In this document: positions 2,578-39,235 of the stretch, piece after piece | Layout: each line of letters starts with the position of its first letter | How positions within the stretch are numbered: the stretch's first letter is position 1 | Assembly (NCBI GenBank): GCA_029571225.1 | Contig: JAKPTF010000056.1 | Coordinates: forward strand, 1-56,785 | Direction: 5' to 3' | DNA: 56,785 nucleotides | Origin: Candidatus Omnitrophota bacterium | Lineage (GTDB): Bacteria; Omnitrophota; Gorgyraeia; Gygaellales; Profunditerraquicolaceae | Program-made: the position numbers and the translations under genes | Notes under the pieces: model-generated | What the model was told of the DNA's origin: nothing | What the model saw: only the letters and a program-made list of their open reading frames with translations | The model's database searches: none

Positions 2578-2605
2578 AGGCGCTCCTTTGCCGCAGGGAC
2601 TGCGG

Positions 2606-21789: not shown

Positions 21790-22687
21790 TTCCTTTCAGA
21801 TACCCGGCGAGCCAAAAAAAGGCTGCGGGGAAAAACAGCAGGATCGAGGAAGCGCTCCACCGGCACGCTGCCATATAGATGAATAAAGCAAGAGCAGCCG
21901 CGGGAATGACAGCCGGGAATCGAAGCGCGATGCACAGCAGAAGGATAAGGGCCAGCGGGGCATACTGGACCGGCCGGAAAAAACCGTGTAACCTCACCAG
22001 AACTCCCTGCGCCCAGCCGTAGCGTTCCATCATACGCATAAACCCTGCTTGATCTCCGGGACGATAGTGAAAAACAACCGCCTTTGAAGTATATACGATG
22101 CGCCCACCGCGTTTTCTGACGCGATAATCGAACTCGACGTCCTCCCCGGGCCAAAGCCCTGGCAGAAACCCGGGCATCTGCTTAAAAAGCTCCGCCCGGT
22201 ACATGACATTGCAGGTCGGATTGTGGGTAACCAGCCGCACACCCTTTGCCTGACGCGCGTAATCGCTCAAAAATCCTGCCTGTGCAAGGAATTCCTGCAC
22301 TCGCCTGCCGTATGCAGTCTCATCCGCCGGGCTCAATTGCCTGCCTCCCGCGGACATGATATCATCGCGGTCAAAACATTCCACTAATCTGCTTAACCAG
22401 TCTTTTGCGACAATGCAATCGCTGTCCGTAAACGCGATAAAGGCGCCTGACGAACGGGCGATGCCCTCATTGCGGGCGCGCGACGGGCCTCTGCGTTCTC
22501 CGCTGATAACATTCACCCGTGGTGCATACGAACGGGCTATCTCTGCCGTCCGATCGGTCGAGCCGTCATCTACGACAATGACCTCGAAATCGCGCCGGTC
22601 CTGAGCAAGACACGAATCGATGCATTGCCTTAGCGTCTTTTCAGCATTATGTGCGCAGATGACCACGGAAATCAGGGGTTTATCCAT
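21758..22687 (-). CDS. Family 2 glycosyltransferase with C-terminal membrane segments
   Basis: A 309-residue GT2 enzyme: VVICAHNAEKTL near 8, VVDDGSTD near 36, the donor-site TDSDC near 88, and PGEDVEFDYRVRKRG near 180. Two hydrophobic segments near 240-270 and 280-300 suggest membrane attachment. It is the last gene of the long minus-strand unit that contains the pilins, the oligosaccharyltransferase and the other glycosyltransferases, 9 nt after the radical SAM gene, and it overlaps the converging gene on the plus strand. Confidence 0.92.
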   Translation of the reverse strand: MDKPLISVVICAHNAEKTLRQCIDSCLAQDRRDFEVIVVDDGSTDRTAEIARSYAPRVNVISGERRGPSRARNEGIARSSGAFIAFTDSDCIVAKDWLSRLVECFDRDDIMSAGGRQLSPADETAYGRRVQEFLAQAGFLSDYARQAKGVRLVTHNPTCNVMYRAELFKQMPGFLPGLWPGEDVEFDYRVRKRGGRIVYTSKAVVFHYRPGDQAGFMRMMERYGWAQGVLVRLHGFFRPVQYAPLALILLLCIALRFPAVIPAAALALFIYMAACRWSASSILLFFPAAFFWLAGYLKGISRPCRFSES

Positions 22688-22696
22688 AAGGTAAGG

Positions 22697-24121
22697 TCAG
22701 GATCGAATTAGATACGATAAGAAATTCAGGCCGCCGCGAACCTTGCGGTATACATCGAAAATATTGCGGTTCTTAAACAGGAACTTTACCACGAATTCCG
22801 GCCGAAGATAGAACGCACGAAGTCCGCGGTCCACCATGCGGTTGATCGCATCAATGGAAAGACCCGGATAATCTACGACTGCCCCCTGCTCGCCTCCGTC
22901 AAGCCAATCCTCCCAGGACTTGGTTTTAAGCAATCCCCGGTCGCGGCAAAATTCGAAATATTCGGATCCGGGCAGGGGCACTGCCGCGGAGAATTGAATC
23001 GTATCCAGTTTCAAGCTCAGCGCAAAATCTATGGTCTTCTGCGCGGTCCCGACCGTTTCGCCTGGAAGGCCGAGTACGAAACAGCCGTGAACCTCGATAC
23101 CCGCCTGATGCGCAATATCCACAAACCTGCGCGACTGTTCAATGGTCACGCCCTTCTTGATCGTATCGAGGATCTCCTGGTCGCCTGATTCAAAACCGAC
23201 CAGGAACTGGCGGCATCCGCTTATCTTCATCTGCCTGAACAAATCAAGATCGCAAATATCAGGGCGGGCATTCACCGACCAGGTGACCTTTAATCCGCGG
23301 CGGGCGATCTGGCCGCATATAGAAAGCGCCCGTTCTTTGTTCACCGTGAAGGTATCGTCCTCGAAAAAGAATTCCCCGTATTTCAGCATCGGGAACATCC
23401 GAAGGTCATATTCGATCTCATCCACGACATGGCCGGCGGATCGAAAACGATATGCATGGCCGAACATCAATTGGGGCCACTGACAGAATATACAGCGATA
23501 CGGGCACCCCCTGCCCCCGATGATATTGATATACGGATACAGCCTGCCCGCGTCGAAATACCTCCTCAAATCGATAAACTCCCAGCTGGGAAACGGCAGA
23601 GAATCCAGGTCCGCGATCAGCGGACGCCGTGCGGTATGAACCGGTTTTCCGTCGCGCAGGAAACATACTCCGGGAATCGATTCAAAGGCGCGCCCCTGAC
23701 GTATAATATCCCGCACCGTATAATCGTATTCACCCAGAGCGATGAGATCGACTGCGCCGTTCGCCGCTGCGAGCGTATCGCCGGGAAGGGCGCTGGCATG
23801 CGTGCCGACCATGATCACTTTTGCGCCCGCGTCTTTGCAGATACGCGCGCACTCAATATCCGAGAAAATCGACGGAGTGGTAGAATCGAGTACGGCCCAT
23901 TCAGGCCGTTCCCGGCGGACAAACGCGGCCAGGCGCGTTTTGTCCCAGTTCATGGCGGTACAATCGATCAGGCGGGCGTCAAAACCGTCCCTGCGCAATA
24001 CTGCAGTCGCATACGCAAGCCAGTCCGGGGGGCGCAACGCCCTGCCGCGCGTCCGTGCAGGCCAGCGCTGGGTGCGGCAGAAATCCTTTATGAACGGCTC
24101 ACTTATGACCAGTATTTTCAT
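22697..24121 (-). CDS. B12-binding-domain radical SAM protein
   Basis: A 474-residue protein with an N-terminal cobalamin-binding-like Rossmann part (strand MKILVISEP, then VIMVGTHASALP near 100), and a radical SAM core with CPYRCIFCQW (CX3CX2C) near residue 205. Later conserved pieces are FFEDDTFT, VGFESGDQEILDTIKKG and FVLGLPGET. This is the class B layout used for methylations, cyclisations and lipid changes such as hopanoid or bacteriochlorophyll steps. Its place inside the glycan locus suggests it modifies a sugar or a lipid carrier, which is inference only. It overlaps the upstream GT2 gene by 23 nt. Confidence 0.88.
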   Translation of the reverse strand: MKILVISEPFIKDFCRTQRWPARTRGRALRPPDWLAYATAVLRRDGFDARLIDCTAMNWDKTRLAAFVRRERPEWAVLDSTTPSIFSDIECARICKDAGAKVIMVGTHASALPGDTLAAANGAVDLIALGEYDYTVRDIIRQGRAFESIPGVCFLRDGKPVHTARRPLIADLDSLPFPSWEFIDLRRYFDAGRLYPYINIIGGRGCPYRCIFCQWPQLMFGHAYRFRSAGHVVDEIEYDLRMFPMLKYGEFFFEDDTFTVNKERALSICGQIARRGLKVTWSVNARPDICDLDLFRQMKISGCRQFLVGFESGDQEILDTIKKGVTIEQSRRFVDIAHQAGIEVHGCFVLGLPGETVGTAQKTIDFALSLKLDTIQFSAAVPLPGSEYFEFCRDRGLLKTKSWEDWLDGGEQGAVVDYPGLSIDAINRMVDRGLRAFYLRPEFVVKFLFKNRNIFDVYRKVRGGLNFLSYLIRS

Positions 24122-24866
24122 TCGGCAGACGGCGATAATCGCCCCGGCTCAACACTTTCTCAAGCCAAAGGTAGATAATAATGAACAGGTACCTCGACCC
24201 CATCTCTTTGATCTTCCATTTGGAAAGGCCTTTTTCCCTTCCTGTCCAGCCGGTCGGTATAACAGTCCAGCGGTATCCGCGTATGATGGCCTTGAGCGGC
24301 ATCTCCACTGTAAGGTTGAAATGGCATGAAATCAACGGCTGCATGCCGCGGATCGCGGTTCGCGAATAGCATTTGAAGGCGTTTGTGACATCATTATAGG
24401 GTATCCAGAAGATAGTCCTGATAAAAAGATTGCCCAGGCGGTTCAAAATCAGCTTGTGCAACGGATACCCTGACACGCGGGCCTGGGGGCAGAAACGGTC
24501 CCCGAACACGCACTCATACCCTTGGAGCATCCTGCGGTAATAGGCGACGATATCCTCCGGATCGTCAGACCCGTCTGCCATGACGATCACGGCCATATCT
24601 CCCTTGAAACGCTCAAGGCCTTTGACGACTGCAAAACCGTATCCGGGCCTGTTGTCATTGTCCACCAGGCGTACGCGCGGATTGCGCCGGGCGCACTCCA
24701 GCACGGCCTGACGGGTGGAATCCTGGCTGTGATCGTCAATGATGATGATTTCATACGGAATGCGGTCCCTTTCCAGGATCGACTCGATATCGGATACCAC
24801 CCGGGAGACATTCTGGCTCTCATTGCGAGCCGGAATTAATACTGATAAAAGCGCCGGATCGCTCAT
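24099..24866 (-). CDS. Dolichol-phosphate-sugar-synthase-like GT2
   Basis: A 255-residue GT2 protein with VLIPARNESQNV near 10, IIIDDHSQDST near 40, GYGFAVVKGL near 74, and the donor-site MADGSDDPEDI near 95. This is the DPM1-like pattern of enzymes that load a single sugar on polyprenyl phosphate. No clear C-terminal membrane domain is present. It is coupled to the upstream GT-C gene by ATGA. Polyprenyl-phosphate sugars are the usual donors for GT-C enzymes, so the two genes probably work together. Confidence 0.9.
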   Translation of the reverse strand: MSDPALLSVLIPARNESQNVSRVVSDIESILERDRIPYEIIIIDDHSQDSTRQAVLECARRNPRVRLVDNDNRPGYGFAVVKGLERFKGDMAVIVMADGSDDPEDIVAYYRRMLQGYECVFGDRFCPQARVSGYPLHKLILNRLGNLFIRTIFWIPYNDVTNAFKCYSRTAIRGMQPLISCHFNLTVEMPLKAIIRGYRWTVIPTGWTGREKGLSKWKIKEMGSRYLFIIIYLWLEKVLSRGDYRRLPNENTGHK

Positions 24867-26515
24867 TTGTCTGTCCTGCCGGCAGTTATCATGAAGAAAG
24901 GTATATCGCCCTGCAAGGTCCTGTACACGGTATCCATCTTTGCGTTTCGGATATTATCCCTGATAAAGGCGTCGATATCGGCCGTACCGCCTTTTTTGAG
25001 GACGACAGCCTGCGGCAGGACCCTATCTCCTGCGGCAACGAAACCCAGGGAATCTACATGGTATGAACCCATGATGTATTCTTTCATGTCAGGCGGCATG
25101 GCCCTGATGAATCCGAACGGATACACGACCGCGTACCGGATATGCTCTTGCGCTTCGATACGCTTAAGCTGCCCAAGGCTGTCAGGCCAGCCGCAGCGCT
25201 TACGCGCGTACACGCAAGGCGCATATCCCTGGCTGGTGGTGTATATTAAGAACTTCTCTTCTGGCTCCATGACCTTGGCCAGGTATATCCCAACTGCATC
25301 AGCGCCAGGGAATATCACGCCGAAATGCCCCCTGACAGCGGAAAAAATCCCAGGGACCGCGACAGCAAACGCGGTAAAAAATGCTATTGCGAACACATGG
25401 GTCTGGCGGATGCTGCGAAGGAACGAGGCTGATGCGCGGCTGATACTCTCGAGGCAATAGACGCAGGCAAAAACGGCCAGCCCCAGAAACGGCATCTGGT
25501 AATAATTGTGCTGGTTTATGTAATCGTTAAAGACCATGATATACGGTATAATCAAAACGCTCCAGATGCGTATATAGGCAGCTAACATACTGCGGTCTGT
25601 CCGGATTCGTACCCATGCCAAGATCATGCCTGCTGCAGCCAATACCGAATATATGAACGTGAAGTTTTCATTGATCGCATAATGGCGGATGATGGGGCCG
25701 AACTGACGCCAGTAGGCAAGGGTAAAGGGCCGCCACAGCATGACACGGCCTTCTGTGCTGCTGAACGACGTCTGTCCGGTAAGATAACAGTATATTATGA
25801 AAACTGCCAGCGGAATTCCCAGGATGGCCATATCCTCTGCGATCCCGCAAGCCCTGCGGCTGCGGGCATACTGTCTGAAAGGCACCAGAAAGAAAACTGC
25901 CGCAAACCCTATCAAAAACGCTATCTTATACGCCGCAGTCAAAGCAAGCGAAAGCGAGAACAGGATAAGATATATTTTTTTTCCGCTCCGGATAAAATGC
26001 AGGCCCATTACGGACCCGCAGCACATGGCAAAGAACGCGCCGCTCTCTGCCTGGAGATTCCTAGCGAAGAACACTCCCAGCGGCATGACCGCGAGCAAAA
26101 AAAGAACCGCAAGCCGAAGCGCCAGCGAAAGCCCCAATAAACCGGCGATCCGGTAGAGGCACAAAAAAGCAGCAAGCATCAGCAGAATATTTATCAGTCT
26201 CGGGAACCACAGGGTGTCGCCGAACAGTTTATACCCGGCAAGGATCTGATATGAAACGAACGGGATTTGCGGATACAGGTTGAAATCGCTGTTTTCAGAA
26301 AAGGCGTTGTAAAAATAAACGTGCCGTCCGATCAGATCTCCGGTCTTTAGCATGTGCTGCGCCATGCTGATGTATTCATTTTCTTTCATGTTGTGATAAC
26401 CGATGGAAGGAAAATCAAGCTGCGGAAGTCGCAAAAGGAGCGCTCCTGCCATGATCGCGCCTATGATCAAGATTCTTGGCGCAAAACCTCTTCGTTTTAC
26501 CGTTCTCTCTTCCAT
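24863..26515 (-). CDS. GT-C fold membrane glycosyltransferase (ArnT/GT39-like)
   Basis: A 550-residue polytopic membrane protein with about 11 hydrophobic segments. The N-terminal loop has [27 protein letters not shown] near 30-56, the acidic first periplasmic loop expected of GT-C enzymes that use polyprenyl-phosphate sugars. The C-terminal about 120 residues are a soluble, probably periplasmic part. It is coupled to the following DPM-like gene by ATGA. Acceptor unknown. It probably adds a sugar on the periplasmic face to the same glycan that the STT3 protein transfers. Confidence 0.82.
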
Positions 26516-27570
26516 TTATTGACGTTCGCCTTGAAGATATCTTCGAGTATGCCGCGTATATCCATGGTAAGGCCCCAGCGGGGATAATGCGCCCTGAATT
26601 TTGACACGTCGCTAATCCACCATATGTGGTCCCCGATGCGGTTGCCGGGTACATACCTGGTCTTGAGGGCATTGCCGGTGATTTTCTCGCACAACTTCAC
26701 CGCCTCCAGCAGAGAACAATTGCTGAACCTGCTCCCTCCCATATTATAGACTTCCGCGATGCGGGGGCGTTTGTAAAAATGGTAGAACGCGCTTACCAGG
26801 TCCCGGCTGTGGATATTGTCCCTGACCTGCTTGCCCTTGTAACCGAATATCCTGTATTCGCGGCCGATCACCGCACACTTGAGCAGGTATGCAAGGAACC
26901 CGTGAAGCTCTACTCCCGAATGACCAGGGCCTGTAAGACATCCGCACCGGAATACCCCCGTTTTCATTCCGAAATACCTGCCGTATTCCTGGACGAGCAC
27001 ATCGGCGGCAAGCTTCGAGGCGCCGAACAGCGAATGCTTGCACTGATCGACCGACATTGATTCATCGATACCATTGCGGTAATACGGATGGCACCTGCTG
27101 ACCTCCCAGCGAGAGGGCATTTCCACCAGCGGCAGTCTGTTGGGCTTATCCCCGTAAACCTTGTTCGTTGAGGTAAAAATGAATACCGCATCCGGGCAAT
27201 GCCGCCTCGCCGCTTCCAGAAGGTTCAGCGTCCCGCCGGCATTGACGGAGAAATCAGTAAACGGCTCGCGCGCAGCCCAATCATGGGAAGGCTGTGCCGC
27301 GGTATGAATGATAAGCTTTATGTCTTTGCCGTAGAGAGAGAATACCCGGGCAAGGGCATTGCTGTCCCTTATATCAATGCTTTTATTCACGAAACCGGGG
27401 CATTCATCGAGCAATCCTCGAAGCGACAACCGGGTAGAAGCCTCCGGCCCGAAGAAATACCGGCGCATATCGTTATCGATGCCGACAACCTTGAATTTCT
27501 TCGCGAAAAAAAAACGCACTGCCTCGGACCCGATCAGGCCCGCCGCTCCTGTGATAAGCGCTATGTTCAT
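26497..27570 (-). CDS. NAD-dependent sugar epimerase, CDP-paratose 2-epimerase-like
   Basis: I chose the ATG at 27570 (357 residues, [16 protein letters not shown]), which overlaps the upstream stop (ATGA). It is an extended short-chain dehydrogenase: GAAGLIG near 8, [12 protein letters not shown] near 89, STNKVYGD near 134, and [13 protein letters not shown] near 238. STNKVYGD resembles CDP-tyvelose/paratose epimerases. At the catalytic YxxxK position the sequence reads LFGASK, so the Tyr is Phe182 while Lys186 is kept. From memory this HSLFGASK form recurs in a subfamily, so it may be a family trait and not damage. Confidence 0.88.
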
Positions 27571-28637
27571 AAATTCACCCTGAATAGCCTTTGCGCGAGC
27601 GCGTGATTGCTTTTTAGCCAGCCGTAGATATCGACCAGGGTCTGCTCTGCCTCGCGCCGGGGATGCCACGCGAATTCCTGCTCTGTCTGCCGGTTATCGG
27701 TGATGTACCATTTGATATCCGCCGGCCGGTTGCGCCGTACGCTTCCTATCGGCACGGTATTGCCCGTGATACTGCGGCACAATTCCGTTGCCTGGCGCAA
27801 AGACAGCGCGGCGCGGGCCCCTCCGCCCGCATTGAAAACCTCTCCGCGGTATTTGTGGATCACCTTGATCTGGGCATCAATGAGGCATATCAGATCGTCA
27901 ATATGAAGGATATCCCTGACCTGTTTGCCCGTGCCCCCGAATCCGATATACGCAAGCCTGCGCCTGAAATAGTGGCTGACCATCCAATGCGTGAACACCC
28001 CCTGATCTGCCCTGCCTAACTGCCAGGGCCCGGCGATTACGCCGCACCTGTCTATGACGGCAGGAATATTGTAATTCATGCTGTATTCCCTCAGGATGAA
28101 TTCTGCTGCGAGCTTCGTGGCGCCGTACAAAGAGCGGTAACCGTCAAGCGGAAAATCGGGACGGATCCCGGATCCGCTCACACCTTTACTCCTGCTTGCC
28201 AGGCGGAACAATCGCGGCAGTTCGTCATACCGCAGCGCATTGATCCTGTCATACGGATACACGCGGGAGGTTGACAGGAAGATAACGGCAACGCTGCGCT
28301 TGCGGCACCATTCAAAACAATTGACCGAGCCTGTCAGGTTATTGTGCACCACATACAAGGCATCCCGGCCGTCAGAACCGGCCAGAACCGACGGCTCGGC
28401 GCTCGCGTCGATCAAAAGCGAAAAATCGCCCTTGCACTTTTTGAGGTCGTCCGGAGCCCGGATATCCCCGCGCACGAACGCGCAGCCGTGTTCCTGCACG
28501 CGCCTGCACAAAAGCCCGGATCCCGGACGGCTGAGATTGTCAAAACAGGTAACGCGGTCGCCGCGGGTCCTGAAGGCGATAGCGATATTAGAGCCTACAA
28601 AACCGCAACCTCCGGTTATCAGGATGCTTCGAGCCAT
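27567..28637 (-). CDS. NAD-dependent sugar epimerase/dehydratase
   Basis: A 356-residue extended short-chain dehydrogenase, paralogous in layout to the next gene. The nucleotide-binding motif is GGCGFVGSN near 9, [10 protein letters not shown] near 131 carries the Ser, and [11 protein letters not shown] near 183 carries the catalytic Tyr and Lys. [13 protein letters not shown] is near 247. It resembles CDP-paratose 2-epimerases. The substrate is probably a nucleotide-activated sugar for the linked glycan. It is coupled to the following epimerase (ATGA) and lies 9 nt after the GT2 stop. Confidence 0.9.
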
Positions 28638-28646
28638 GGCGCCCCT

Positions 28647-29795
28647 TTATGCTTTTCTGCGTAATGACAGCAGGCTTATAAAAAACGACGAGAACAGCGT
28701 CTGCAGGCCAATCACGAGCAGGGTCATTGCAAGGATCGATTCGCGGATACGGTACAGGGCCCCGAAACGGTTGTGAAACCATTCGGCAAAGATCAGGATA
28801 TTAATGCACAGGCCGATGAAAAAGAGCAGCAGGCCGGCCAGTATCCCACGCTCCAGATTGAAATGGCGCTGAAAGAAAGTGATGAACGCGTCTTTTTTCA
28901 GGAACCCCTGCTCGACCGCGAAGGTGTGCGCGTAAATGCCCAGATGAAGCAGTTGATAGGAAAGGATGGACAGGACCGCGGCAAAAACCATGGGGTGCAT
29001 GTCCCAGAGATGTCCGAGGAAAAAAACAGGGCCTCCGGACAGAATCAAAAGGACCAGCATGCCGGATGTAAAGCCAGCGATCCCGGGTATGAAATAAAGC
29101 CAGACAGGGCAAAACAGGAGCATGAAGCGGATATGCCGCCAGGCATCGGAGAATGACTTGAGCTTGGATACCCCTTCGCGTTTGAAATAGTTGATGGGGA
29201 CCTCGTGAATCTTAAGGTCGTTATTGATCGCTGCGACCACCATTTCCGTGGCGAATTCCATACCAACCATCTGAAGCCGCATGGCATCGAACGCCGTGCG
29301 GCTGAACGCCCGAAGTCCGCAATGTATGTCGGAAAGCCTGGTATGGAAAAAAAGCCGAGTCATGCCCGAAAGCACCGGATTTCCGATATACCTGTGGGCC
29401 CAGGGCATGGCGCCTTTATGGATAGTGCCTTTGAAGCGGGATCCTATGACGAAATCATATCCCTGGCGCAGGTGCTCGAGAAACCGCGGGATGTCATTGA
29501 AATCATAGGTATTATCGCTGTCGCCGATGATAATATACCTGCCGGCGGCATGGCGTATGCCGCACAGATACGCTGCCCCATACCCTCTGAGGGGCTCGAA
29601 CACGACATGCGCGCCTTCATCTCTGGCTATCCGGGCTGACCGATCTGTCGAGCCGTTGTCTGCGACAATTATCTCGCCGCGGATATCCTCGCGCGCGAAA
29701 ACATCCCTGATCGTGCGGATGCACCGGGCAACGCCATTTTCTTCATTCAGACATGGCATTACCACCGACACTTCGACAGCGCTCTCACCGTCCAT
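28647..29795 (-). CDS. GT2 polyprenyl-phosphate glycosyltransferase with C-terminal membrane domain
   Basis: A 382-residue protein. Residues 1-235 are a DPM1-like GT2 domain: VVMPCLNEENGV near 11, VADNGSTDRS near 44, GYGAAYLCGI near 71, and the donor motif GDSDNTYDF near 90. Residues about 235-375 form four hydrophobic segments. The layout matches enzymes that build polyprenyl-phosphate-hexose. It follows directly on the oligosaccharyltransferase gene with an 11-nt overlap, so it is likely to supply or start its lipid-linked glycan. Confidence 0.9.
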   Translation of the reverse strand: MDGESAVEVSVVMPCLNEENGVARCIRTIRDVFAREDIRGEIIVADNGSTDRSARIARDEGAHVVFEPLRGYGAAYLCGIRHAAGRYIIIGDSDNTYDFNDIPRFLEHLRQGYDFVIGSRFKGTIHKGAMPWAHRYIGNPVLSGMTRLFFHTRLSDIHCGLRAFSRTAFDAMRLQMVGMEFATEMVVAAINNDLKIHEVPINYFKREGVSKLKSFSDAWRHIRFMLLFCPVWLYFIPGIAGFTSGMLVLLILSGGPVFFLGHLWDMHPMVFAAVLSILSYQLLHLGIYAHTFAVEQGFLKKDAFITFFQRHFNLERGILAGLLLFFIGLCINILIFAEWFHNRFGALYRIRESILAMTLLVIGLQTLFSSFFISLLSLRRKA

Positions 29796-32313
29796 TACCC
29801 GTCCAGTCTATTTCGAAGACGCCGATATGATGCTGCGGGTCGTTGTTATGCGTAAACGGTTTGAAATACCGCATCCCTTTGCCTTTAAGGAAATAAAGGC
29901 GGGAGAACAAAGATCCGGCAAGCTCCCTGTCCAACTCTACGATCCGATACTCGCCTCCGTCCTCCAGGAGCAAAGCCGAGAACGAAAGGTTGTTTTCAAC
30001 ATATTGATGCTCCTGAAGACGGCCGTCCTCCACATAAAAAAGGCTTCTGGGAATGAGGAACTTCCCGTCATAGGCGTTAAAGATGAACAGGGAACGGTCT
30101 TTCGGATTATAAACAAGGCCGTTGTCGAAGAGAAGGATATCGCCCTGCTTCTTTCCAGGAATAGCCCCGGTCACAAAACGCCAGTAATGCGAAATCCACT
30201 GTTTATACTGCCCCGGATGCAGGAGCCTGGCGTCGGAATACAAGGCCTCTGCCGTCTTTCCATCAATCCCCCATGATTCCAGCCGGGACACTATCTCCTC
30301 CTTGCTACTGCGGTCCATGTTCTTGACAACGTACAGCCGCAGGATATCCCAGTTGCCAAGATACGAGATCGGGAACATTTTTCCGATCATTGTATAATCT
30401 ACGATGAAATACGCGCTCTGCGGCGTTCCGGTCAGGATAGGTATCAGCGCGGCCACGGTATCTGGCGGCAGGTTCTCTGAAAGGAGGCGCTTGGCGTCCA
30501 CGGGCGAAGCGACTAACGCCCTTTCAAGAAGAAGCAATGAGCGGAACGGGTCCTTTAATACGGCCTGTATCAGCTCGAACGCGCGGTTCCCGCCGTTATT
30601 GAGCATACGCAGCACACGCACCGCGTATTCCTCGGAATCCGCCAGCAAAACTCTTGCCATCCAGTATCCCCTGGGGCTGTTCTGGCTCTGGCCGTCGAAA
30701 ATGACCCTTCTGTTGGCGACAGCTTTGAACCAATCGCCGAAATCCCACCATGAGTTCAAAACGGAATCCTCAGGAGTATTCTGCCTGATATTGGTCAGTA
30801 GCTTATACCACGAATCGTCCATCATCGGGAACAGTCCCCGGGCGGTACGGTCCCCGTTCCAGATAAAAACTCCGATGAGAAGGCCTGCGACTACGAGCGC
30901 TCCGGGAAGCAAATATTTCTTCTTTTTCCTGCGCCGCATGGCATAATTAAACGCCTCTCGCATGCCCCACCCCAGGAATATGCCCATCGGGATCAGCAGG
31001 AACACAATCAGCCGCGTGCCTTTATAACAGATGGCGAATATGATGGTGAACCATAATACCAGAAGGAATATAGACTCGCGCTTGGGGCCGCGGTAACGCT
31101 TGTTGCGCAATACCAGGACAAGCATGCAGGTCAGGCAAGCAAGGAACAGAGGCGTGCCTCCGACGAATTTAGATATATGGTTGAACGTCGGACGGGTCAG
31201 CTCTCCTACCGTAGCGAAGACATTCGGCCAGATAGAGGCGTTGATGGGGTCATTCAGAGTCAACGCGTCTATGGCCTGGCCCGCGAGTATCCGCACCGGT
31301 CCGGCCCCTCCCAGCAGAAACACCGCTGCCGCGCACGCTGGCAGGAAGAATGCCACCGACGTCAGGTGGCGCCGCATCGAAACTCCGATCGCTTTCTTGT
31401 ACTGGATCTTCTCGCAAAGCTGATCAAGCACGGAATACAGCTCATACCCCAGAATCACTACTACTATAAACCACCAGTATACCCATGTATAGGCGAAAAG
31501 CCCGACGAAAAGCGCCGAAAGGCCTATCCATAAAAAACGTTTGACCGGACCGACCCTGCCATAGGACATCAGATACGAAAACGCTACCGCCAGCGGGAAC
31601 AACTGGTTAAGGATGTCCATGTCGAACCATCCGGCGCAGCTCCGCGGCATGAAGATAGGAGCGCACCCGATGAACAGCACGCACATGAAGGCCGCCAGTG
31701 CCCCGTAAAATCGCCAGCAGATTAAGTATAACGCTCCAAGAAAAACGATGATAAACAACAAAGGCAGGTAGAACAAGAACGCGTACAGAGGCATTGATAC
31801 GAAAACACCAGCCGTCTTATAGAGGAAGGCGCTGACATAATATAACAGCATGTTATAGGAAACAGCCATGCCGTCAGGATGGTTCATGAGTGTATCCCAC
31901 TCCCTGCCGTTTTTGACGATATCCCCCGGATGTCCTGAACGGACCGTGTTCTCGACGTAACGCGCCCAATGCCAGCAATCAAGCTCGAAAAGATACGTCT
32001 GCCCGGCAGGGTCCTGATATTTATCCTTGAGCCGGGCATATTCATCGGCGGTATCCCGGGCCAGCTTTGCCGCATTCTGGCCCGCATATTCCTTCTCGGC
32101 AACCTTGATGAGGGCTTCACGCGCCATCGAAGACAGGTTGGAATAATTGCGGTTGATAAGTTCTGCGGAACGCTGATGCATAAGGGATTCGACGCGGCTG
32201 CGCGCCTCTGACGCTAATTGCGGGAATTGAGCGGGGAATGACCTAAAAAAAACATTGATACCTATGGCCAGGCCAAGACCCAGTAATGGCAGGAACGGAT
32301 ATCTTTTATTCAT
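29785..32313 (-). CDS. STT3/PglB/AglB-type oligosaccharyltransferase
   Basis: An 842-residue protein with about 13 membrane segments followed by a soluble periplasmic domain from about residue 485. The hallmark catalytic motif WWDFG is at 522-526. Other OST signatures fit: LFELDCWHW near 108 with Asp112 (first-loop acidic residue), GWFDMDILN near 229 with Asp231/Asp233, and ATVGEL near 367 with Glu371 (the SVSE-type motif). Residues 30-100 are a helical insertion in the first loop with its own NYS and NLS sites. It would move a lipid-linked glycan to Asn of N-X-S/T. Its ATG overlaps the stop of a prepilin gene (ATGA), and glycosyltransferases follow. Confidence 0.88.
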   Translation of the reverse strand: MNKRYPFLPLLGLGLAIGINVFFRSFPAQFPQLASEARSRVESLMHQRSAELINRNYSNLSSMAREALIKVAEKEYAGQNAAKLARDTADEYARLKDKYQDPAGQTYLFELDCWHWARYVENTVRSGHPGDIVKNGREWDTLMNHPDGMAVSYNMLLYYVSAFLYKTAGVFVSMPLYAFLFYLPLLFIIVFLGALYLICWRFYGALAAFMCVLFIGCAPIFMPRSCAGWFDMDILNQLFPLAVAFSYLMSYGRVGPVKRFLWIGLSALFVGLFAYTWVYWWFIVVVILGYELYSVLDQLCEKIQYKKAIGVSMRRHLTSVAFFLPACAAAVFLLGGAGPVRILAGQAIDALTLNDPINASIWPNVFATVGELTRPTFNHISKFVGGTPLFLACLTCMLVLVLRNKRYRGPKRESIFLLVLWFTIIFAICYKGTRLIVFLLIPMGIFLGWGMREAFNYAMRRRKKKKYLLPGALVVAGLLIGVFIWNGDRTARGLFPMMDDSWYKLLTNIRQNTPEDSVLNSWWDFGDWFKAVANRRVIFDGQSQNSPRGYWMARVLLADSEEYAVRVLRMLNNGGNRAFELIQAVLKDPFRSLLLLERALVASPVDAKRLLSENLPPDTVAALIPILTGTPQSAYFIVDYTMIGKMFPISYLGNWDILRLYVVKNMDRSSKEEIVSRLESWGIDGKTAEALYSDARLLHPGQYKQWISHYWRFVTGAIPGKKQGDILLFDNGLVYNPKDRSLFIFNAYDGKFLIPRSLFYVEDGRLQEHQYVENNLSFSALLLEDGGEYRIVELDRELAGSLFSRLYFLKGKGMRYFKPFTHNNDPQHHIGVFEIDWTGNGR

Positions 32314-32921
32314 AATGGAGTAGCGTTGGCTGATACCGCAGGCATGCTGATACGGGTATCCAGCTTGATACGGGGATTATCGACACTTCCGCACTCTGTG
32401 GTGGCATTCCAGCACACAGTCACTGTCGCGTTAACATAGGCCTGGTGCGAATCGAACATCGCGTCCCACTCATACACGTTGCGCGAGAGAGTCTCCTTCG
32501 AATGGTCCTCGCTAACCAGATCCGGCCATGTCCGTATGCGCGGATAGAACGTCACGGTGTGTGCTGTATTATTGAAACAATATGCGATCTCCCGGTCCGC
32601 TGCGGCCTTGCCGGGTTCCGAAAGATTGACCTTGGTCCAGACGCGCACAAAACGGTCGCATCCTCCGATGGCAGGCGATACGCTGACCGGATAATCGCTC
32701 CCGTCTCCGATCGCGTTGCCGATGAATTTGCTCATATGCTCCAGAATATATGTCGCTTCGTTAGTAACCTTTGTCTTGCGGTCAGTGCTCATGAATGCGT
32801 GCCTGCAGAAGATCTCAAGGTTGGTGATGCCCAATATGATCATGGACAACAGGACCAGCGCAATTATCAACTCCATGAGCGTCATGCCGTACCGGCTATT
32901 GCGGTTCGGTCCAGTTGACAT
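32310..32921 (-). CDS. Prepilin-like protein with five N-glycosylation sequons
   Basis: I chose the ATG at 32921 (203 residues), preceded by AAAGGTGG, over the longer frame to 32978. The N-terminus has the prepilin peptidase site G/MTLMELIIALVLL with Glu5 of the mature helix. The body is polar and has several Cys. Sequons are NLS, NNT, NAT, NAT and NAT, the last at the C-terminal end. The size and helix resemble GspJ-like minor pseudopilins. It overlaps the upstream prepilin by 26 nt and the oligosaccharyltransferase start by ATGA. Confidence 0.85.
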   Translation of the reverse strand: MSTGPNRNSRYGMTLMELIIALVLLSMIILGITNLEIFCRHAFMSTDRKTKVTNEATYILEHMSKFIGNAIGDGSDYPVSVSPAIGGCDRFVRVWTKVNLSEPGKAAADREIAYCFNNTAHTVTFYPRIRTWPDLVSEDHSKETLSRNVYEWDAMFDSHQAYVNATVTVCWNATTECGSVDNPRIKLDTRISMPAVSANATPL

Positions 32922-33258
32922 TGACGACCACCTTTCGCAACGTCGTACCCGTGACATTAGAGGTCTTATATGAGACATTAAACAGGATGTTGTTCAGGGT
33001 ATAGTTGGTATCAACGCACAGCGATTCGTTGTAGAGGCAGTTTTTACCCGGCGGGCCGTACTCATCCGCGCTCACTGACAGACCAGGGTCCTCAAAGAAG
33101 AACTTCCCCACTTCCATACTCACCACGCGCGATCCGCTGTGATAAACGAACCGTTTGCTGACCGTGAATAAGCTCACGAAACCGTACATAACCAAAGACA
33201 GGATAAGCATGGCTACGATGATTTCAAGTAGCGATACGCCTATCCTGTCTTTTGTCAT
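32896..33258 (-). CDS. Prepilin-like protein with five sequons (GspI-like)
   Basis: A 120-residue protein with prepilin site G/VSLLEIIVAMLILSL near residue 7. The small globular part has Cys pairs and the sequons NES, NYT, NVS, NVT and NWT, one every 24 residues. The short size resembles GspI/PilV-type minor pilins. It lies 27 nt after the previous prepilin and overlaps the next. Confidence 0.85.
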   Translation of the reverse strand: MTKDRIGVSLLEIIVAMLILSLVMYGFVSLFTVSKRFVYHSGSRVVSMEVGKFFFEDPGLSVSADEYGPPGKNCLYNESLCVDTNYTLNNILFNVSYKTSNVTGTTLRKVVVNVNWTEPQ

Positions 33259-33285: not shown

Positions 33286-33684
33286 TTAATTCGGCTCTTC
33301 TAATGTCTCGTTGATGAAATACGTCCTGATATCCGACCCCCGGGTGCGCGTTGCCGTAGCATTGAACGTCGTTGCGGTCGCCTCTGTCACCTTATAGTTC
33401 CAGTTCTTGGAGTCGGCTTTCTGCGGCAACATGAGCCGTAACCGCTGATTGATCTCAGTCTCGTCAGCTGCGGTCACGTATGAGCCGGTCTCCATGCGGT
33501 ATATCTTCTGAGCAGCTGCAATTAGCTTCAGATTCGCCTTGGCCTCTTTCGTAAGCGACTGCTCTTTCGGCCCTGTGAACTGCACTATGGATAGGGTCGC
33601 GAGTATCCCGATGATGATCACCACGACCATTAACTCCAGAAGGGAAAATGCCGATGCCGCCCAAAGGGGCTCAGAATAACGCAT
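33286..33684 (-). CDS. Prepilin-like protein with Ala at the cleavage site
   Basis: A 132-residue protein whose leader (MRYSEPLWAASA) ends in Ala before FSLLELMVVVIIIGIL, so the peptidase would cut after Ala and not Gly. The mature helix has the conserved Glu5. The mature part is rich in Thr and Ala. Sequons are NAT and NET, near the C-terminus. It lies 12 nt after the preceding prepilin gene. Confidence 0.86.
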   Translation of the reverse strand: MRYSEPLWAASAFSLLELMVVVIIIGILATLSIVQFTGPKEQSLTKEAKANLKLIAAAQKIYRMETGSYVTAADETEINQRLRLMLPQKADSKNWNYKVTEATATTFNATATRTRGSDIRTYFINETLEEPN

Positions 33685-33696
33685 GGCGCTTTGGGA

Positions 33697-34122
33697 TTAG
33701 TATTTGTTCGTCGAGAACACGTTTTCACCCGTCGTGAAGGTCGAGTTCAGGCTGATATACCAGTTCGATCCCGCAGGGGCTCCCGGATTCTTTGAGGTTG
33801 CGCCCTCGCAACGGGTCGCGTTGATCAGCGTACCGTTATTCAGGGGGGTCAAAGAATACCTGAACCAGTGTGACGCGCCGCACGACGTGGGCACGCCAGC
33901 CGGAGTCGTGATATTTGTCGCGTCGCAATAATTCGTGGTCCCGCCGTATTCCATCCACATTGCCGCGCACTGCGTGCTCAGGGAGCCAAGTATCGACTTT
34001 GCCTCTGCGCCCCTTGATTTCTCAACAGCTGCCTGATACTGGACGATACCGATTGTGGCAAGAATACCGATGATAATGATGACAATCATCAGTTCGATCA
34101 GGGTAAAACCCTTAATTTTCAT
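33697..34122 (-). CDS. Type IV pilin-like major prepilin with four sequons
   Basis: A 141-residue protein with a short leader MKIKG and the canonical FTLIELMIVIIIIGILATIG helix. Four Cys could form two disulfides. Sequons are NIT, NGT, NAT and NST. The short leader, length and place second behind the strong promoter make it a good candidate for the main pilus subunit. It lies 23 nt after the first prepilin gene. Confidence 0.88.
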   Translation of the reverse strand: MKIKGFTLIELMIVIIIIGILATIGIVQYQAAVEKSRGAEAKSILGSLSTQCAAMWMEYGGTTNYCDATNITTPAGVPTSCGASHWFRYSLTPLNNGTLINATRCEGATSKNPGAPAGSNWYISLNSTFTTGENVFSTNKY

Positions 34123-34145: not shown

Positions 34146-34577
34146 TTAATAAATACCCTGCGACGACAGGACCTGCGTGTTGTTCAAATAATCTACGGTC
34201 AGGGTAATGGAACCCGGTTGTTTTGCGTCCGGAGGCCTGCCGTATTTCATGCACCGGGTTGCGGTAAAGACCATGACGTCCTCGAACGACGGGGATTCCT
34301 CCGCGCTGTAATTAAAGTAATGGGACCTGCAGCATTCAGACGGGATCATGCCCTCTTCCATGCCTATGTTCAAAGCCTTCGGGGTGCATTTTAGAACGCT
34401 CCTATCCCGGTCATAGATAACCGCGCATCCCTTGCGCAGATTGCCCAGGATATCCCTGGCTTCTGCCGCGCGCGCCCTCTCGACTGCAATAAAATACTGG
34501 ATCACGGCTACCACTGCGAGGACGCCGACAATGATGACCACGATCATCAACTCTATGAGCGTGAATGCCTTCTTCAT
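34146..34577 (-). CDS. Type IV prepilin-like protein, first of the pilin cluster
   Basis: I chose the ATG at 34577 (143 residues, MKKA/FTLIELMIVV), preceded by GGAGAG 6 nt upstream. The longer frame upstream covers the promoter. The residue before the cut is Ala. The mature part has several Cys and the sequons NYS and NNT. It is 30 nt downstream of the predicted transcription start of a strong promoter. Confidence 0.87.
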   Translation of the reverse strand: MKKAFTLIELMIVVIIVGVLAVVAVIQYFIAVERARAAEARDILGNLRKGCAVIYDRDRSVLKCTPKALNIGMEEGMIPSECCRSHYFNYSAEESPSFEDVMVFTATRCMKYGRPPDAKQPGSITLTVDYLNNTQVLSSQGIY

Positions 34578-34613
34578 ATTCTCTCCGCACGTGATAAAGC
34601 GCATGTTATATGT

Positions 34614-34641
34614 ATTATATACCTCCGCACGCATTTGTCAA
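34614..34641 (-). promoter_or_regulatory. Strong promoter of the pilin-oligosaccharyltransferase-glycan cluster
   Basis: On the minus strand a consensus -35 TTGACA (34636-34641) and a consensus -10 TATAAT (34614-34619) are 16 nt apart. The predicted start is near 34607. It sits directly behind the gspF stop and would raise pilin expression over the assembly genes upstream. Confidence 0.88.
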
Positions 34642-34646
34642 GCGCG

Positions 34647-35891
34647 TTACGAACCTCCGATCTTGGTCATCTGGAATATGGGCAGGAACATCCCGACGAC
34701 CATCATGCCGACCACAAGGCCCATGAAAATCAGCATCATGGGCTCAAAAAGCGTCAGGATCCTCGCAAGGAAAGTGCTGACGTACTCCTGATAGAACGCG
34801 TTGATACGCTTGAACATCTGTGACAGTTCGCCTATCTCTTCTCCGATCGTGACCATCTGGACGACCATGGGCTCGAAGAACTGGCTCTGCTCCATGGGAA
34901 CGCTCAGGGGCTTTCCTGAACGGACGTCTTCCTTGATCTGGTGCACAATCTCTCCCAGGATCACGGAGCCGACGCTTTTCTCAGTAATTTCCAGCGAATA
35001 AAGAATGGGCACACCGCTTTCGACCAGCGTGGACATCTCGGACGAAAACCGCTCCACGCACAATGCCCTGAAAAAATCCCCGAACAGGGGCAGGCGGAAC
35101 AGGAAATGTTCCCACTGCCTCTGTCCCTCATGCGTGTGGATGTATTTGCGGAATAGATAAATAGCCACGATGATGCCAGCGCAGATCAGAATGATGAATT
35201 TCCTGATGAATTCGCTTACCGACATGAGGACCTTGGTAGGGCCCGGCAGGTCAAGGTCAAAGCCGCGGAACACCTCTGCAAAGGTCGGAACAATCTTGAT
35301 GGTCAGGAATAATAACGCGCCCAGCGATCCGGCCAGGAGAATGGACGGGTAGATCAGCGCTGATATCAATTTGCGCCTGAATTCGGCGTTGCGCTCAAGA
35401 TACATGGCAAGACGGTCAAGGACCACCGCGAGGTTGCCCGAAGCTTCGCCTGATTCGACAAGGTTAATCCACAACTCAGAAAAAATATCTTTATGCTTTT
35501 CAAGCGCTTCATGGAAACTCAACCCCTGTTCCATCTCCTTCTGAAGGTTTTTGATAACGGCGTAGAGCCGGGTGCTCGTTACCTGTTTGCCTATAGTCTC
35601 AAGGCTTGCGAGGATGGTGACTCCGGAGCCCAGCAGCGTCGCCAGTTGCCTGCAGAAAAGCACCAGGTCGTTTGCATTGACGCCGAAATGCCGTTTGAGC
35701 GCGAAACTCGGCCTACCCGTTGCTTCTCTCATGGCCGTGCCCAATTCCACGTTACCTGCGCTCATGATGCTGACGACCGTCAGCTCCATATTCTGCAATC
35801 GGCCGATCAATTCCTCTTCGTTGGTGCCTTCTTCGACGCCCGTAACCTTCTTGCCGTCTCTGTTCCGGGCTATATACATGAACCGTGGCAT
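34647..35891 (-). CDS. gspF: Type II secretion / type IV pilus inner-membrane platform protein
   Basis: I chose the ATG at 35891 (414 residues, MPRFMYIARNRDGKKV), overlapping the gspE stop by one base (TAATG). The protein has two repeated GspF domains, seen as SGEASGNLAVVLDRLA near 150 and IGEEIGELSQMFKRI near 355, and about three membrane segments near 165-190, 215-240 and 385-405. It anchors the assembly ATPase in the inner membrane. PilC is the pilus name of the same family. Confidence 0.94.
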   Translation of the reverse strand: MPRFMYIARNRDGKKVTGVEEGTNEEELIGRLQNMELTVVSIMSAGNVELGTAMREATGRPSFALKRHFGVNANDLVLFCRQLATLLGSGVTILASLETIGKQVTSTRLYAVIKNLQKEMEQGLSFHEALEKHKDIFSELWINLVESGEASGNLAVVLDRLAMYLERNAEFRRKLISALIYPSILLAGSLGALLFLTIKIVPTFAEVFRGFDLDLPGPTKVLMSVSEFIRKFIILICAGIIVAIYLFRKYIHTHEGQRQWEHFLFRLPLFGDFFRALCVERFSSEMSTLVESGVPILYSLEITEKSVGSVILGEIVHQIKEDVRSGKPLSVPMEQSQFFEPMVVQMVTIGEEIGELSQMFKRINAFYQEYVSTFLARILTLFEPMMLIFMGLVVGMMVVGMFLPIFQMTKIGGS

Positions 35892-37612
35892 TATCCTGCT
35901 CCTATGGTGACTGAAAGGGCCTCTTCGAACGAGGTAACCCCTGCCTCGACTTTGCGAATGGCCGACTCGAACAATGTCTGCATGCCCCCAGCGACCGCAA
36001 CCTCGCGTATTTTCAGGAACGACGCGCGCTGATTGATCAGCTCCCGTATCTGCTCGTTGATGACGAGGACCTCTCCGATAGCGATCCTGCCGCGGTATCC
36101 GATCTGGTTGCACTTAGGGCAGCCTTTTGGCCTGAACAACAGGTCGGCCTTAACCTTGACTGACCCGAGTTCCTCGGCGGTCGGCTCGTAAGCCTCCTTG
36201 CAATCAGGGCAGAGCCTACGTATCAAACGCTGCGCCACTACAAGTATGAGCGTCGGGGATATAAGATAAGGTTCGACGCCGATATCTATCAGCCGATTGA
36301 CGGCAGACGGCGCGTCGTTGGTATGCAGTGTGCTCAAGACCAGATGGCCGGTTAAGGATGACCGCAGGCAGATTTCCGCGGTCTCCAGGTCGCGGACCTC
36401 ACCGACGAGCATGACATCGGGGTCTTGGCGCAAAAACGAGCGCAGTGCCGCGGCGAACGTCAGGCCAATCTCCGGTTTGACCTGCACCTGGTTGACGCCG
36501 TCAAGCTTGAATTCGACCGGGTCCTCGACCGTGACGATGTTCCTCGAAGGGCTCTTGATTTCGTTGAGCATGGCATACAGGGAGGTGGACTTGCCGCTTC
36601 CCGTAGGTCCGGTTACGAAAATCAGGCCATAGGGCATCTGTATTGCTCGCCTGATCTCTTCAAGCTGTTTGGGTTCATAGCCCATCTGGCTCAGGGACAA
36701 AAGCGTAGATCCTTTGTCAAGGATCCTCAGGACTGCTTTTTCACCCCAAATCGTCGGAACTGTCGAAACGCGCAGGTCTATGACCCGGTCATCCAGCTTG
36801 ACCACAATCGCTCCGTCCTGCGGCAACCTTTTTTCAGCGATATCTAGTTTGGCTAGTATCTTGACGCGCGACACAAGCGCAAGGTTCAGATGCTTTGCCG
36901 GAGGCGGGATCTCGTAAAGCTTACCGTCTATCCTGTAACGGAGGCTGATGCGGTCCTTGAAAGGCTCGATGTGTATATCCGATGCCCGCTCGTTGATCGC
37001 CTGCCTGATTATCAGGTCCACAAGCTTTACCACCGGGGCCTCTTCGGCGCGGGCAACGAGCTTATCAAGGCTCAATTCCTCTTCATGGGATTCAATTGTA
37101 GCAGCCGGCTCTTCGGCTTCGCTCTTTTCGTATGACGCGCTGACGGCGGATTTGAGCATGCTCGATTTGCCGTAAAAGTCATCCATCGCCTTAAGAATAT
37201 CCGATCTCGTGGCTATAACGGGATTGATCTCGCAGCCGGTCAGTTTGCGCAGGTTGTCGATGAGGATCAGATCAAGCGGATCAGCCATCGCTACGGTCAG
37301 GGATTTGAGCGTGTGCGACAAAGGAAGGACGAAATTCTTTATTGCGAATTCATGGGGTATAAACTGATCGAGCTTTTGATCGATCGCGGGCTTGAGCATG
37401 CCTGCGGAAAAAGAAAAAAAAGCCAGCCCCAGCTGTTTGCCCACAACCTTGACAATCTGTTCCTCGGTCACGATCCCAAGTTTTACGAGGACCTCTCCGA
37501 GCCTTCCACCTTCTTTACGCTGATGATTGATCGCCTTATCAAGGTCGGAAGGGGTGATCAACCCCTCGGTAATAAGCAGCTCTCCCAATTTGAAATATTT
37601 TTCTGTCGCCAT
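35891..37612 (-). CDS. gspE: Type II secretion / type IV pilus assembly ATPase
   Basis: A 573-residue cytoplasmic ATPase of the GspE/PilB family. An N-terminal MshEN-type region (LGELLITEGLITPSDLDKA and a second helix repeat) is followed by the ATPase core: Walker A GPTGSGKST near 345, Asp box VTVEDPVEF, Walker B DPDVMLVGEVRD, and the zinc-binding CPDC and CPKC pair near 475-510. It powers pilin addition. It has no N-X-S/T sequon in 573 residues, a useful control for the pilins. Confidence 0.96.
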   Translation of the reverse strand: MATEKYFKLGELLITEGLITPSDLDKAINHQRKEGGRLGEVLVKLGIVTEEQIVKVVGKQLGLAFFSFSAGMLKPAIDQKLDQFIPHEFAIKNFVLPLSHTLKSLTVAMADPLDLILIDNLRKLTGCEINPVIATRSDILKAMDDFYGKSSMLKSAVSASYEKSEAEEPAATIESHEEELSLDKLVARAEEAPVVKLVDLIIRQAINERASDIHIEPFKDRISLRYRIDGKLYEIPPPAKHLNLALVSRVKILAKLDIAEKRLPQDGAIVVKLDDRVIDLRVSTVPTIWGEKAVLRILDKGSTLLSLSQMGYEPKQLEEIRRAIQMPYGLIFVTGPTGSGKSTSLYAMLNEIKSPSRNIVTVEDPVEFKLDGVNQVQVKPEIGLTFAAALRSFLRQDPDVMLVGEVRDLETAEICLRSSLTGHLVLSTLHTNDAPSAVNRLIDIGVEPYLISPTLILVVAQRLIRRLCPDCKEAYEPTAEELGSVKVKADLLFRPKGCPKCNQIGYRGRIAIGEVLVINEQIRELINQRASFLKIREVAVAGGMQTLFESAIRKVEAGVTSFEEALSVTIGAG

Positions 37613-37633: not shown

Positions 37634-39235
37634 TTAACGGTCAAAATTATTCAACGCGGTATTCACTGCTTCGTGGCGCGTGAACAGCGTGACCTTGTTG
37701 GCCTGGGACCGCTGCCTGTTGGCGCCGGTAGGCGCCCTGGGGCCCCGTCTTTGCGACAACGGGGCTGCCTGATCTTTGACGATATGCGGGGTTATGAAAA
37801 CAAGAAGCTCCCGTTCTTCGTTCTGACTCTGGTCCTTGCCCCTGAACGCCATTCCCAGTATCGGAATGTCGCCAAGCACAGGGATTTTGGTTTTGATGAC
37901 CTCCTTTTCAAGTTTGATGAGCCCTCCGATAACAACGGTTTCCCCGTCTTTAATCTTTATAATGGATTTGGACGCGCGGACCTCCGGGTCGAGATTATAT
38001 TCTACCGAGCCGGCGCTCTGGCTGGTCGTGCTCGACTTGGGATTAACAACAAGCACGATCTCTCCCGTATCTTCGTTTATCATGGGGGTCACGCGCAGGA
38101 ATACGCCGATACCCTCGGGCGTAAGCGACAGGGATGAGGCGCGTTCATAGGTATATGTCCGGTCGCCTGTTTCTTCGTCTATCTCTTCCGTGCGCGACAC
38201 GATCTCGTCTTTTGTGATGCCGATCTCCGCTGTTTCGTGATTAAGGGTCATGATCCTGGGGCGCGCCAGGAGCTTTGTCGAGGTATCCTTTTTCAACAGG
38301 TCAAATGACACTGACCACATATTGCTTCCCGAATAAAAATCAAGGTTTCCCGCTGTCCGGGCCAGGGTCCCGCCGGAACCCTTGAAAGACGCCGTTGAGA
38401 AGGGGAATGCGATATTCTTGCTCCCAAGGGTCAATCCGAGGTTCATGATCGGATTATTGCCGAAGTTGAAACCAAGCTTGTCAACCAAATCTTTTCTGAC
38501 GTCGAGCATTTCAACATCAAGCATGACCTGCGACTGCGGCACGTCAAGGGCGGCGATGAGCGACCTGATCTGCGGGAACCTGTTCGGGACATCGGTGACT
38601 ATAATGCTGTTTGTCTTGTTGTCCTCGGAAACTTTTCCCACTGCGCTTAACATCTGCTGGATCATGGATTTAACGTCGGATATATCAGCCGCGGCCGTTT
38701 CTGCCTGCCCCCCCCCTTGCGTGCTCGTCAAGCCGCCGGTAAACATACCTGTCCTCTGCTTTTCCATGTTCGATGTCGATACTGAACGGTGTTTGAGCCT
38801 GAATACTTCGGTGACGAGGTCAGCATCCTCTTCCTTGCCCCGTACCACGAATATGCCCGCGTCCTCGTCGAACTCATAGGTCAGTTTGTTCGTGTCAAAG
38901 AGCTTGTCCATTGCCAGTTTAATCGGGACCTTGTCAAGGTACAACGTGATCTTCTTGTTTTCCACAGCTTCAGACGCGATGAAATTAAGGCCTGACTGGA
39001 TGGAGAAAATTTTCAGGATATCGCGAAGGTTCGCCTCCTGCAGGTCCATGGATATGGTCTGCTCAGGCGATATCGTTTCGTCAAATACCGCCTCGCTCTG
39101 CATAGGCATACCAACAGCGACGCCTGGCCCCCCACCCCTGCCCAGAGAAGCGCTGTCCTGCGCGCGCAGCGCGATCGGGAATAGGCTGAATGCCGCGGTC
39201 AATAACAAAACCGATAATCTTGTGAATTTATGCAT
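37634..39235 (-). CDS. gspD: Secretin (GspD/PilQ family)
   Basis: A 533-residue outer-membrane secretin with a signal peptide (MHKFTRLSVLLLTAAFSLFPIALRA, cut near 25). An STN/N0-like region is at about 45-125, an N1 domain with TNSIIVTDVPNRFPQIR near 195, and the C-terminal secretin barrel with VVIGGLIKLE and VPVLGDIP-type motif (here IPVLGDIPILG) and ELLVFITPHIV near 490. The last 40 residues are a basic, disordered tail. It forms the outer-membrane pore for the pilus or secreted protein. Confidence 0.94.
   Translation of the reverse strand: MHKFTRLSVLLLTAAFSLFPIALRAQDSASLGRGGGPGVAVGMPMQSEAVFDETISPEQTISMDLQEANLRDILKIFSIQSGLNFIASEAVENKKITLYLDKVPIKLAMDKLFDTNKLTYEFDEDAGIFVVRGKEEDADLVTEVFRLKHRSVSTSNMEKQRTGMFTGGLTSTQGGGQAETAAADISDVKSMIQQMLSAVGKVSEDNKTNSIIVTDVPNRFPQIRSLIAALDVPQSQVMLDVEMLDVRKDLVDKLGFNFGNNPIMNLGLTLGSKNIAFPFSTASFKGSGGTLARTAGNLDFYSGSNMWSVSFDLLKKDTSTKLLARPRIMTLNHETAEIGITKDEIVSRTEEIDEETGDRTYTYERASSLSLTPEGIGVFLRVTPMINEDTGEIVLVVNPKSSTTSQSAGSVEYNLDPEVRASKSIIKIKDGETVVIGGLIKLEKEVIKTKIPVLGDIPILGMAFRGKDQSQNEERELLVFITPHIVKDQAAPLSQRRGPRAPTGANRQRSQANKVTLFTRHEAVNTALNNFDR

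Follow-up and report, generated by a model that had tools for sequence, protein, structure and literature searches.

An oligosaccharyltransferase gene beside the type IV pilins of an Omnitrophota bacterium suggests archaeal-type N-glycosylation of a bacterial pilus

Introduction

N-glycosylation by bacterial oligosaccharyltransferases (OSTs) has been described mainly from the Epsilonproteobacteria, Deltaproteobacteria and Aquificae (PMC4894442). Bacterial type IV pilins and other targets can also receive sugars from O-glycosylation enzymes such as PglL, whose genes often lie beside those of their targets (PMC3643930). The current study concerns a contig stretch of 56,785 nucleotides (nt) from a Candidatus Omnitrophota bacterium, the whole of which is termed the window and from the start of which all positions are counted. 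At positions 29785..32313 on the minus strand, directly downstream of the pilin genes of a type IV pilus operon, an open reading frame (ORF) encodes an STT3-type OST. The best reading of this locus, which we consider probable, is that these ultra-small bacteria N-glycosylate their type IV pili in the archaeal manner, with the pilins as the presumed substrate. The locus resembles the PglL-type systems in the proximity of enzyme and pilin genes, whereas those systems are O-linked and employ WaaL-related enzymes and the window enzyme is of the STT3 family and predicted to be N-linked.

OSTs as well as N-glycosylated archaeal pilins are already known. Among open-licence PMC papers, we found no description of an Omnitrophota OST, of its sharing with DPANN archaea (including the first-loop insert described below), or of a link between such enzymes and bacterial type IV pilins. 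Published work on the Omnitrophota reports type IV pili as well as epibiotic and predatory traits, and its main text names no OST (PMC10066038). An earlier, sequence-only reading of this DNA had remarked that bacterial OSTs are known mainly from the Epsilon- and Deltaproteobacteria, and the Omnitrophota indeed lie outside the published list, even with the Aquificae included.

Results

The identification of the window ORF as an STT3-type OST, already proposed in the sequence-only reading, is close to certain. The ORF is complete, starts with ATG and encodes 842 amino acids (aa) matching the Pfam STT3 model PF02516 (E=5.3e-26; 92.5 bits against a curated cut-off of 24.5), which was found in 4/14 control genomes, exactly the four archaea. 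The OST core-domain model PF21436 scored 22.7 bits, slightly below its cut-off of 23. An AlphaFold (AF2) model built from 19 homologues (mean predicted local distance difference test score 89.3, predicted template modelling score 0.84) exhibits the OST layout of a multi-helix membrane part and a C-terminal soluble domain. When this model was compared with the PDB using Foldseek, the top 19 matches were all OST entries, beginning with C. lari PglB (5ogl, 6.6e-20) and continuing with A. fulgidus AglB (AfAglB; 3wak, 2.7e-13) and yeast and human STT3. Structure prediction had been proposed as a check of the assignment, which withstood it as far as the comparison reaches: beyond the best match to OST structures, the acidic residues and WWDFG align with known metal and sequon sites.

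As diagnostic OST motifs, we used two DXD-type motifs in external loops EL1 and EL2 (metal), TIXE/SVSE in EL5 and WWDYG in the soluble domain. The window OST contains E110LD112, FD231MD233, T368VGE371, R434, W522WDFG526 and M642xxK645xxxI649, with WWDFG, Asp112, Asp231/233 and Glu371 all located where the sequence-only reading had placed them. By hhalign against C. lari PglB, D231/D233 match YDTD and E371 of TVGE matches TIME, while R434 falls on the Arg of GLRFT and WWDFG on WWDYG. The C. lari PglB letters are those of a retrieved sequence, and a C. jejuni PglB sequence served solely as bait. D112 similarly pairs with AfAglB Asp47 and D231xD233 with the AfAglB DHH motif, the roles of which are described in PMC8342417. 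The catalytic motifs are all invariant or nearly so in the alignment with 19 homologues. Across 53 sequences from Omnitrophota, related bacteria and DPANN archaea, D112, D231, D233, R434, WWD and both the T368 and E371 of TVGE are invariant, and every row has WWDFG or WWDYG. The active site is complete and conserved, and the enzyme is predicted to be catalytically active.

The same comparison separates the window OST from the described enzymes. PglB of Campylobacter and Desulfovibrio gives the best structural match and shares with it a bacterial host and a single subunit, but C. lari PglB is 13% identical, and PglB has DGGK and MxxI where the window OST has DGQSQ and MxxK. Following the definition of the DK or MI motif of the Ser/Thr pocket in PMC8342417, the MxxK...I of the window OST is a hybrid of the two types. 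The traits of proteobacterial PglB systems (DGGK, MI and an acidic residue at -2, which is relaxed in some PglBs) thus do not describe the window OST or the OST-adjacent pilins. A. fulgidus and haloarchaeal AglB share the fold, the catalytic residues and a short sequon, although the second DXD of AfAglB is DHH and its identity in the structural alignment is about 14%.

The putative connection to pili rests upon sequons (N-X-S/T), which were counted in the globular parts of the pilins and compared to shuffles of each protein's own composition. The five pilins of the window operon contain 18 sequons vs 7.35 in shuffles, with 0/5000 shuffles as high. The PilW/PilJ-like prepilin immediately upstream of the OST, which the sequence-only reading had called sequon-rich, has 5 sequons vs 1.65 in shuffles (p=0.013). 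Pilin operons of relatives were located through their PilB and divided into a discovery set and a held-out set; OST adjacency to pilins was singled out after the discovery set had been viewed. Three genomes (G004, G019 and G056) were OST-positive by Pfam and unconfirmed by the family profile; of these, G004 and G019 were thereafter counted as negative. In the discovery loci, the ratio of sequons to expectation was 2.18 with an OST beside the pilins, 1.66 with an OST elsewhere in the genome and 1.10 with none, and the adjacent pilins had 87 forward sequons vs 50 of the reversed motif [ST]xN. All ten held-out loci with adjoining OST and pilins were above 1 (pooled ratio 1.74; rank test vs OST-negative loci p=0.002), whereas OST-negative loci pooled to 1.07 (forward 232 vs reversed 266) and the non-pilin genes of OST-adjacent loci to 0.93. 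An acidic preference at -2 was not found, as D/E occupies 6.4% of these positions in adjacent pilins vs 9.6% in the background, and a Campylobacter-like sequon was accordingly rejected.

We had also considered whether the presence of an OST anywhere in the genome is associated with sequon-rich pilins. This was supported in the first set, but failed in the held-out genomes (rank test p=0.67; pooled 1.49 vs 1.02). Because the held-out adjacent loci agree and genome-wide presence does not, we retain the link for adjacent loci only, and it holds in part of the OST family only.

The second distinguishing feature of the window OST is its first loop, in which a helical insertion at residues 30-100 had been noted from the sequence. 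The insertion is present in the model as a stretch at residues 31-97 with a confidence of about 90, comprising three helices (31-56, 62-79 and 81-97). The Arg of the first transmembrane helix (R24) and the catalytic D112 are 88 residues apart, compared with 83-88 in Omnitrophota rows, 88 in DPANN rows and 25 in C. lari PglB. The first-loop catalytic Asp of AfAglB is residue 47, which leaves no room for an insert. The exceptions to this spacing are L182 (100) and L151 (39), the latter an Aminicenantes-binned sequence with a reduced insert.

The best named relative of the window OST is from an Omnitrophota metagenome-assembled genome (74% identity), and its close matches are nearly all Omnitrophota. 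Outside this phylum, the nearest relatives recovered by one pattern-based scan, which may have missed other OSTs, are mostly DPANN archaea, namely Woesearchaeota and Nanoarchaeota. Their AglB-like OSTs share 25-29% identity over nearly the full length, the 88-residue spacing, MxxK, and commonly a GT2 glycosyltransferase gene downstream; they differ by having W rather than I at position 649 and often A or G at 110, and no bacterial type IV pilus operon was seen alongside them. In a 56-enzyme tree, the window OST groups with L120 (100/100) within an Omnitrophota-dominated clade (87/98), and rooting on AglB and PglB places the DPANN clade (99/99) as its sister. A single clade of Omnitrophota OSTs and C. 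lari PglB is neither supported nor rejected (approximately unbiased test, p-AU 0.13). Since the outgroup branches are long and the PglB clade is not rejected, we assign neither a position to PglB nor a root or a direction of transfer. The window OST carries both markers of the branch, the 88-residue spacing and MxxK, and the former is the strongest sign of common descent. By these characters, the enzyme belongs to an STT3 branch with a helical first-loop insert that is common to Omnitrophota and DPANN archaea. One further OST, from a 3.4 kb Aminicenantes contig (L178), falls inside the DPANN clade and is possibly from a mis-binned archaeal contig.

The junctions flanking the OST gene differ in their conservation. 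Upstream, the TGA stop of the prepilin (ending at 32310) and the OST start codon, ATG (from 32313), overlap as ATGA (32310-32313), exactly as had been described, and this had suggested that pilin and enzyme are made in step by translational coupling. That suggestion did not survive comparison with relatives: pilin-OST distances range from -4 to >1000 nt across loci, the ATGA overlap occurs in the window genome alone, and the relatives have gaps of 0 to >1000 nt. Coupling as a conserved device was therefore rejected, and any pilin-OST coupling is local. Downstream, the GT2 gene (28647..29795, minus strand) shares 11 nt with the 3' end of the OST gene, and the spacing in many loci is similarly tight (-11, -11, -10, -10, -4, +3 and +8 nt), so coupling belongs to OST and GT2 rather than to pilin and OST. 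The encoded GT2 has a C-terminal membrane part and resembles polyprenyl-phosphate-sugar synthases (AglJ, ArnC and dolichol-phosphate-mannose synthase, DPMS). It matches the AglJ model TIGR04182 at 1.2e-42, yet below the curated cut-off, and the PDB entries of ArnC (1.9e-13) and DPMS (1.6e-12). OST-adjacent GT2 proteins are 46-68% identical across the Omnitrophota, more conserved than the OST, and about 30% identical to the DPANN neighbour, a GT2 of broadly similar type being commonly located directly 3' of DPANN OSTs.

All remaining genes of the locus are likewise on the minus strand. A single type IV pilus cluster encodes PilM/N, PilO, secretin, PilB and PilC, followed by the five pilins, and the order PilC-pilins-OST-GT2 recurs in relatives. 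The PilM+PilN fusion (40255-41793) and PilO (39723-40250) were recognized jointly by PF04350, PF11104 and PF05137, and the secretin (37634..39235) by PF00263 (2.5e-36). Orthologues of the PilB/GspE-type assembly ATPase (35891..37612) within the order are 61-75% identical. The PilC-like inner-membrane platform protein (34647..36113, true start about 35880) was assigned by sequence and by its position directly after PilB, an order that is the same in relatives. The pilins comprise a PilA-like prepilin with 2 sequons (34146..34634, likely start 34577; PF07963 1.1e-6), a second PilA-like prepilin with 4 sequons, all NxT (33697..34122; PF07963 1.4e-7), a GspG/PilE-like prepilin with 2 (33286..33684; TIGR01710 2e-12), a PilV-like minor prepilin with 5 in 120 aa (32896..33258; PF07963 and TIGR02523; sequon p=0.006) and the PilW/PilJ-like minor prepilin (32310..32921; PF07963 2.2e-5). 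The last was listed as an ORF at 32310-32978, the likelier start being the ATG at 32921 (MSTGPNRNSRYG^MTLMELI). A small PilX-like protein without a Pfam match (42494..42901) has 4 sequons, all NxT, vs 1.3 shuffled (p=0.022) and may be a further substrate. In another genome (G034), locus L070 has four tandem similar 144-aa major pilins (1586-3361) with differing sequon counts.

Beyond the GT2 gene, profile scans identified two NAD-dependent sugar epimerase-family genes (27567-28637 and 26497-27669), a PMT_2-like member of the GT-C glycosyltransferases (24863-26515) and two more GT2 genes (24099-24866 and 21758-22687). Between the latter lies an HpnJ-like B12-binding radical SAM gene (22697-24121; TIGR03471, 363 bits, below cut-off). 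These glycan genes (21758..28637) occur in similar order at several OST loci. The HpnJ-like gene recurs in the OST/glycan clusters of the window, L031, L041, L049 and L050. The host genome also has lipid-initiating and flippase families, with six flippase candidates over cut-off.

Discussion

Several steps can be proposed for how the system would operate. Firstly, a lipid-linked glycan would be built in the cytoplasm on polyprenyl phosphate, with the adjacent AglJ/DPMS-like GT2 loading the carrier with a sugar, either the first or a later one. Secondly, the downstream enzymes would extend and complete the glycan, on a carrier that may be a mono- or diphosphate, and a flippase would move it outward. 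Finally, the single-subunit OST would transfer the glycan to the Asn of N-X-S/T, presumably with no requirement for an acidic -2 residue, and its targets would be the outward-facing domains of the type IV pilins whose genes lie directly upstream, modified before or during assembly. The conserved active site, the OST fold, the gene linkage and the sequon enrichment at adjacent loci were observed; the catalysis, the glycan donor, the flipping and the pilin substrate are inferred.

A number of observations weigh against pilins as the substrate, and they bear upon three other explanations. According to the first, the OST is active but works mainly on other surface proteins, such as adhesins, giant proteins or S-layer-like proteins, and the proximity to pilins is incidental. 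Many OST-positive genomes have the gene away from pilins, several of these lack pilin sequon enrichment, and OST-positive genomes as a whole are bimodal for it; as noted above, OST presence anywhere failed as a predictor in the held-out genomes. In genomes of the Velamenicoccia type, Ca. V. archaeovorus among them, the OST lies in a queA-tgt-like operon, where pilin sequons are suggestive only (8 vs 4.7, p=0.07), and the occurrence of OST in such unrelated contexts in other branches implies that pilins are not the only substrates of the family. Conversely, all 16 loci with adjoining OST and pilins exceed the sequon expectation, and in two distinct branches (the L122/L130 type and the L162/L174 type) OST genes lie next to pilin operons or within them. 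We regard this explanation as unlikely.

Another explanation, to which we give slightly less credence, is that the enrichment simply reflects pilin composition or local Asn-Ser/Thr clustering and that the OST may act elsewhere. The reversed motif is indeed mildly raised in adjacent pilins and fairly common in the held-out ones (67 forward vs 52 reversed, p=0.10), sequon-rich pilins also occur in the OST-negative genomes G049, G050 and G054 (92, 80 and 65% complete), and the p-values are optimistic, as the loci are related by descent. These genomes belong to a family whose other members carry an OST; a hidden OST in them was not confirmed by a family-profile search. However, the shuffles used as reference preserved the composition of each protein, forward sequons exceed reversed ones in both sets of adjacent loci, and OST-negative pilins taken together show neither effect. 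The third explanation, a different GT-C membrane transferase (a C-mannosyltransferase, an ArnT/PMT type or a lipid/polysaccharide ligase) with no protein N-glycosylation, has in its favor the shared GT-C fold and the presence of DPY19 (3e-8) and ArnT lower in the fold search, but is highly improbable given the conserved WWDFG, TIXE-type TVGE and acidic metal-site residues and an E-value of the best OST match that is about 11 orders of magnitude better than that of the best DPY19 match.

N-glycosylation of type IV pilins is thus the reading we prefer. An STT3 branch present in both Omnitrophota and DPANN archaea implies gene transfer between domains, in either direction. It is conceivable, though we advance it tentatively, that Omnitrophota, which are ultra-small and partly epibiotic, exchanged an OST+GT2 module with DPANN archaea and coat their type IV pili with N-glycans of the archaeal kind. 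If so, theirs would be a type IV pilus of bacteria that bears N-glycans, perhaps used to attach to partner or prey cells or as a disguise against them. An OST branch with a common structural insert spans a nanobacterial phylum and DPANN archaea, with a genetic link to type IV pili. Whether bacterial pili carry N-glycans and how N-glycosylation modules move between domains are thereby made testable questions. Furthermore, OSTs whose likely targets have no -2 acidic signal are candidates for glycoengineering.

When examining the distribution of the OST family, it is evident that it is patchy within the order of the window genome, being present in 41/128 genomes and in 19/59 among the most complete. 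The complete genome of Ca. Velamenicoccus archaeovorus LiM carries it. The housekeeping operon context, in which the OST neighbours queA- and tgt-like genes and pilins are distant, was encountered in Velamenicoccus-type and some other genomes (L165, L170, L176, L180, G029, G038, G039 and G045). In a deep branch (L154, L167 and L174), the OST is flanked on both sides by pilin genes belonging to another type IV pilus/type II secretion operon, with a PilC-like gene upstream and a PilM-like gene downstream, a pilin-OST association separate from that of the window. Second OST copies were also observed, one of them decayed with several stops (G069:C141:37631-40064) and the other a divergent tandem copy in G029 (C21:12186-13853).

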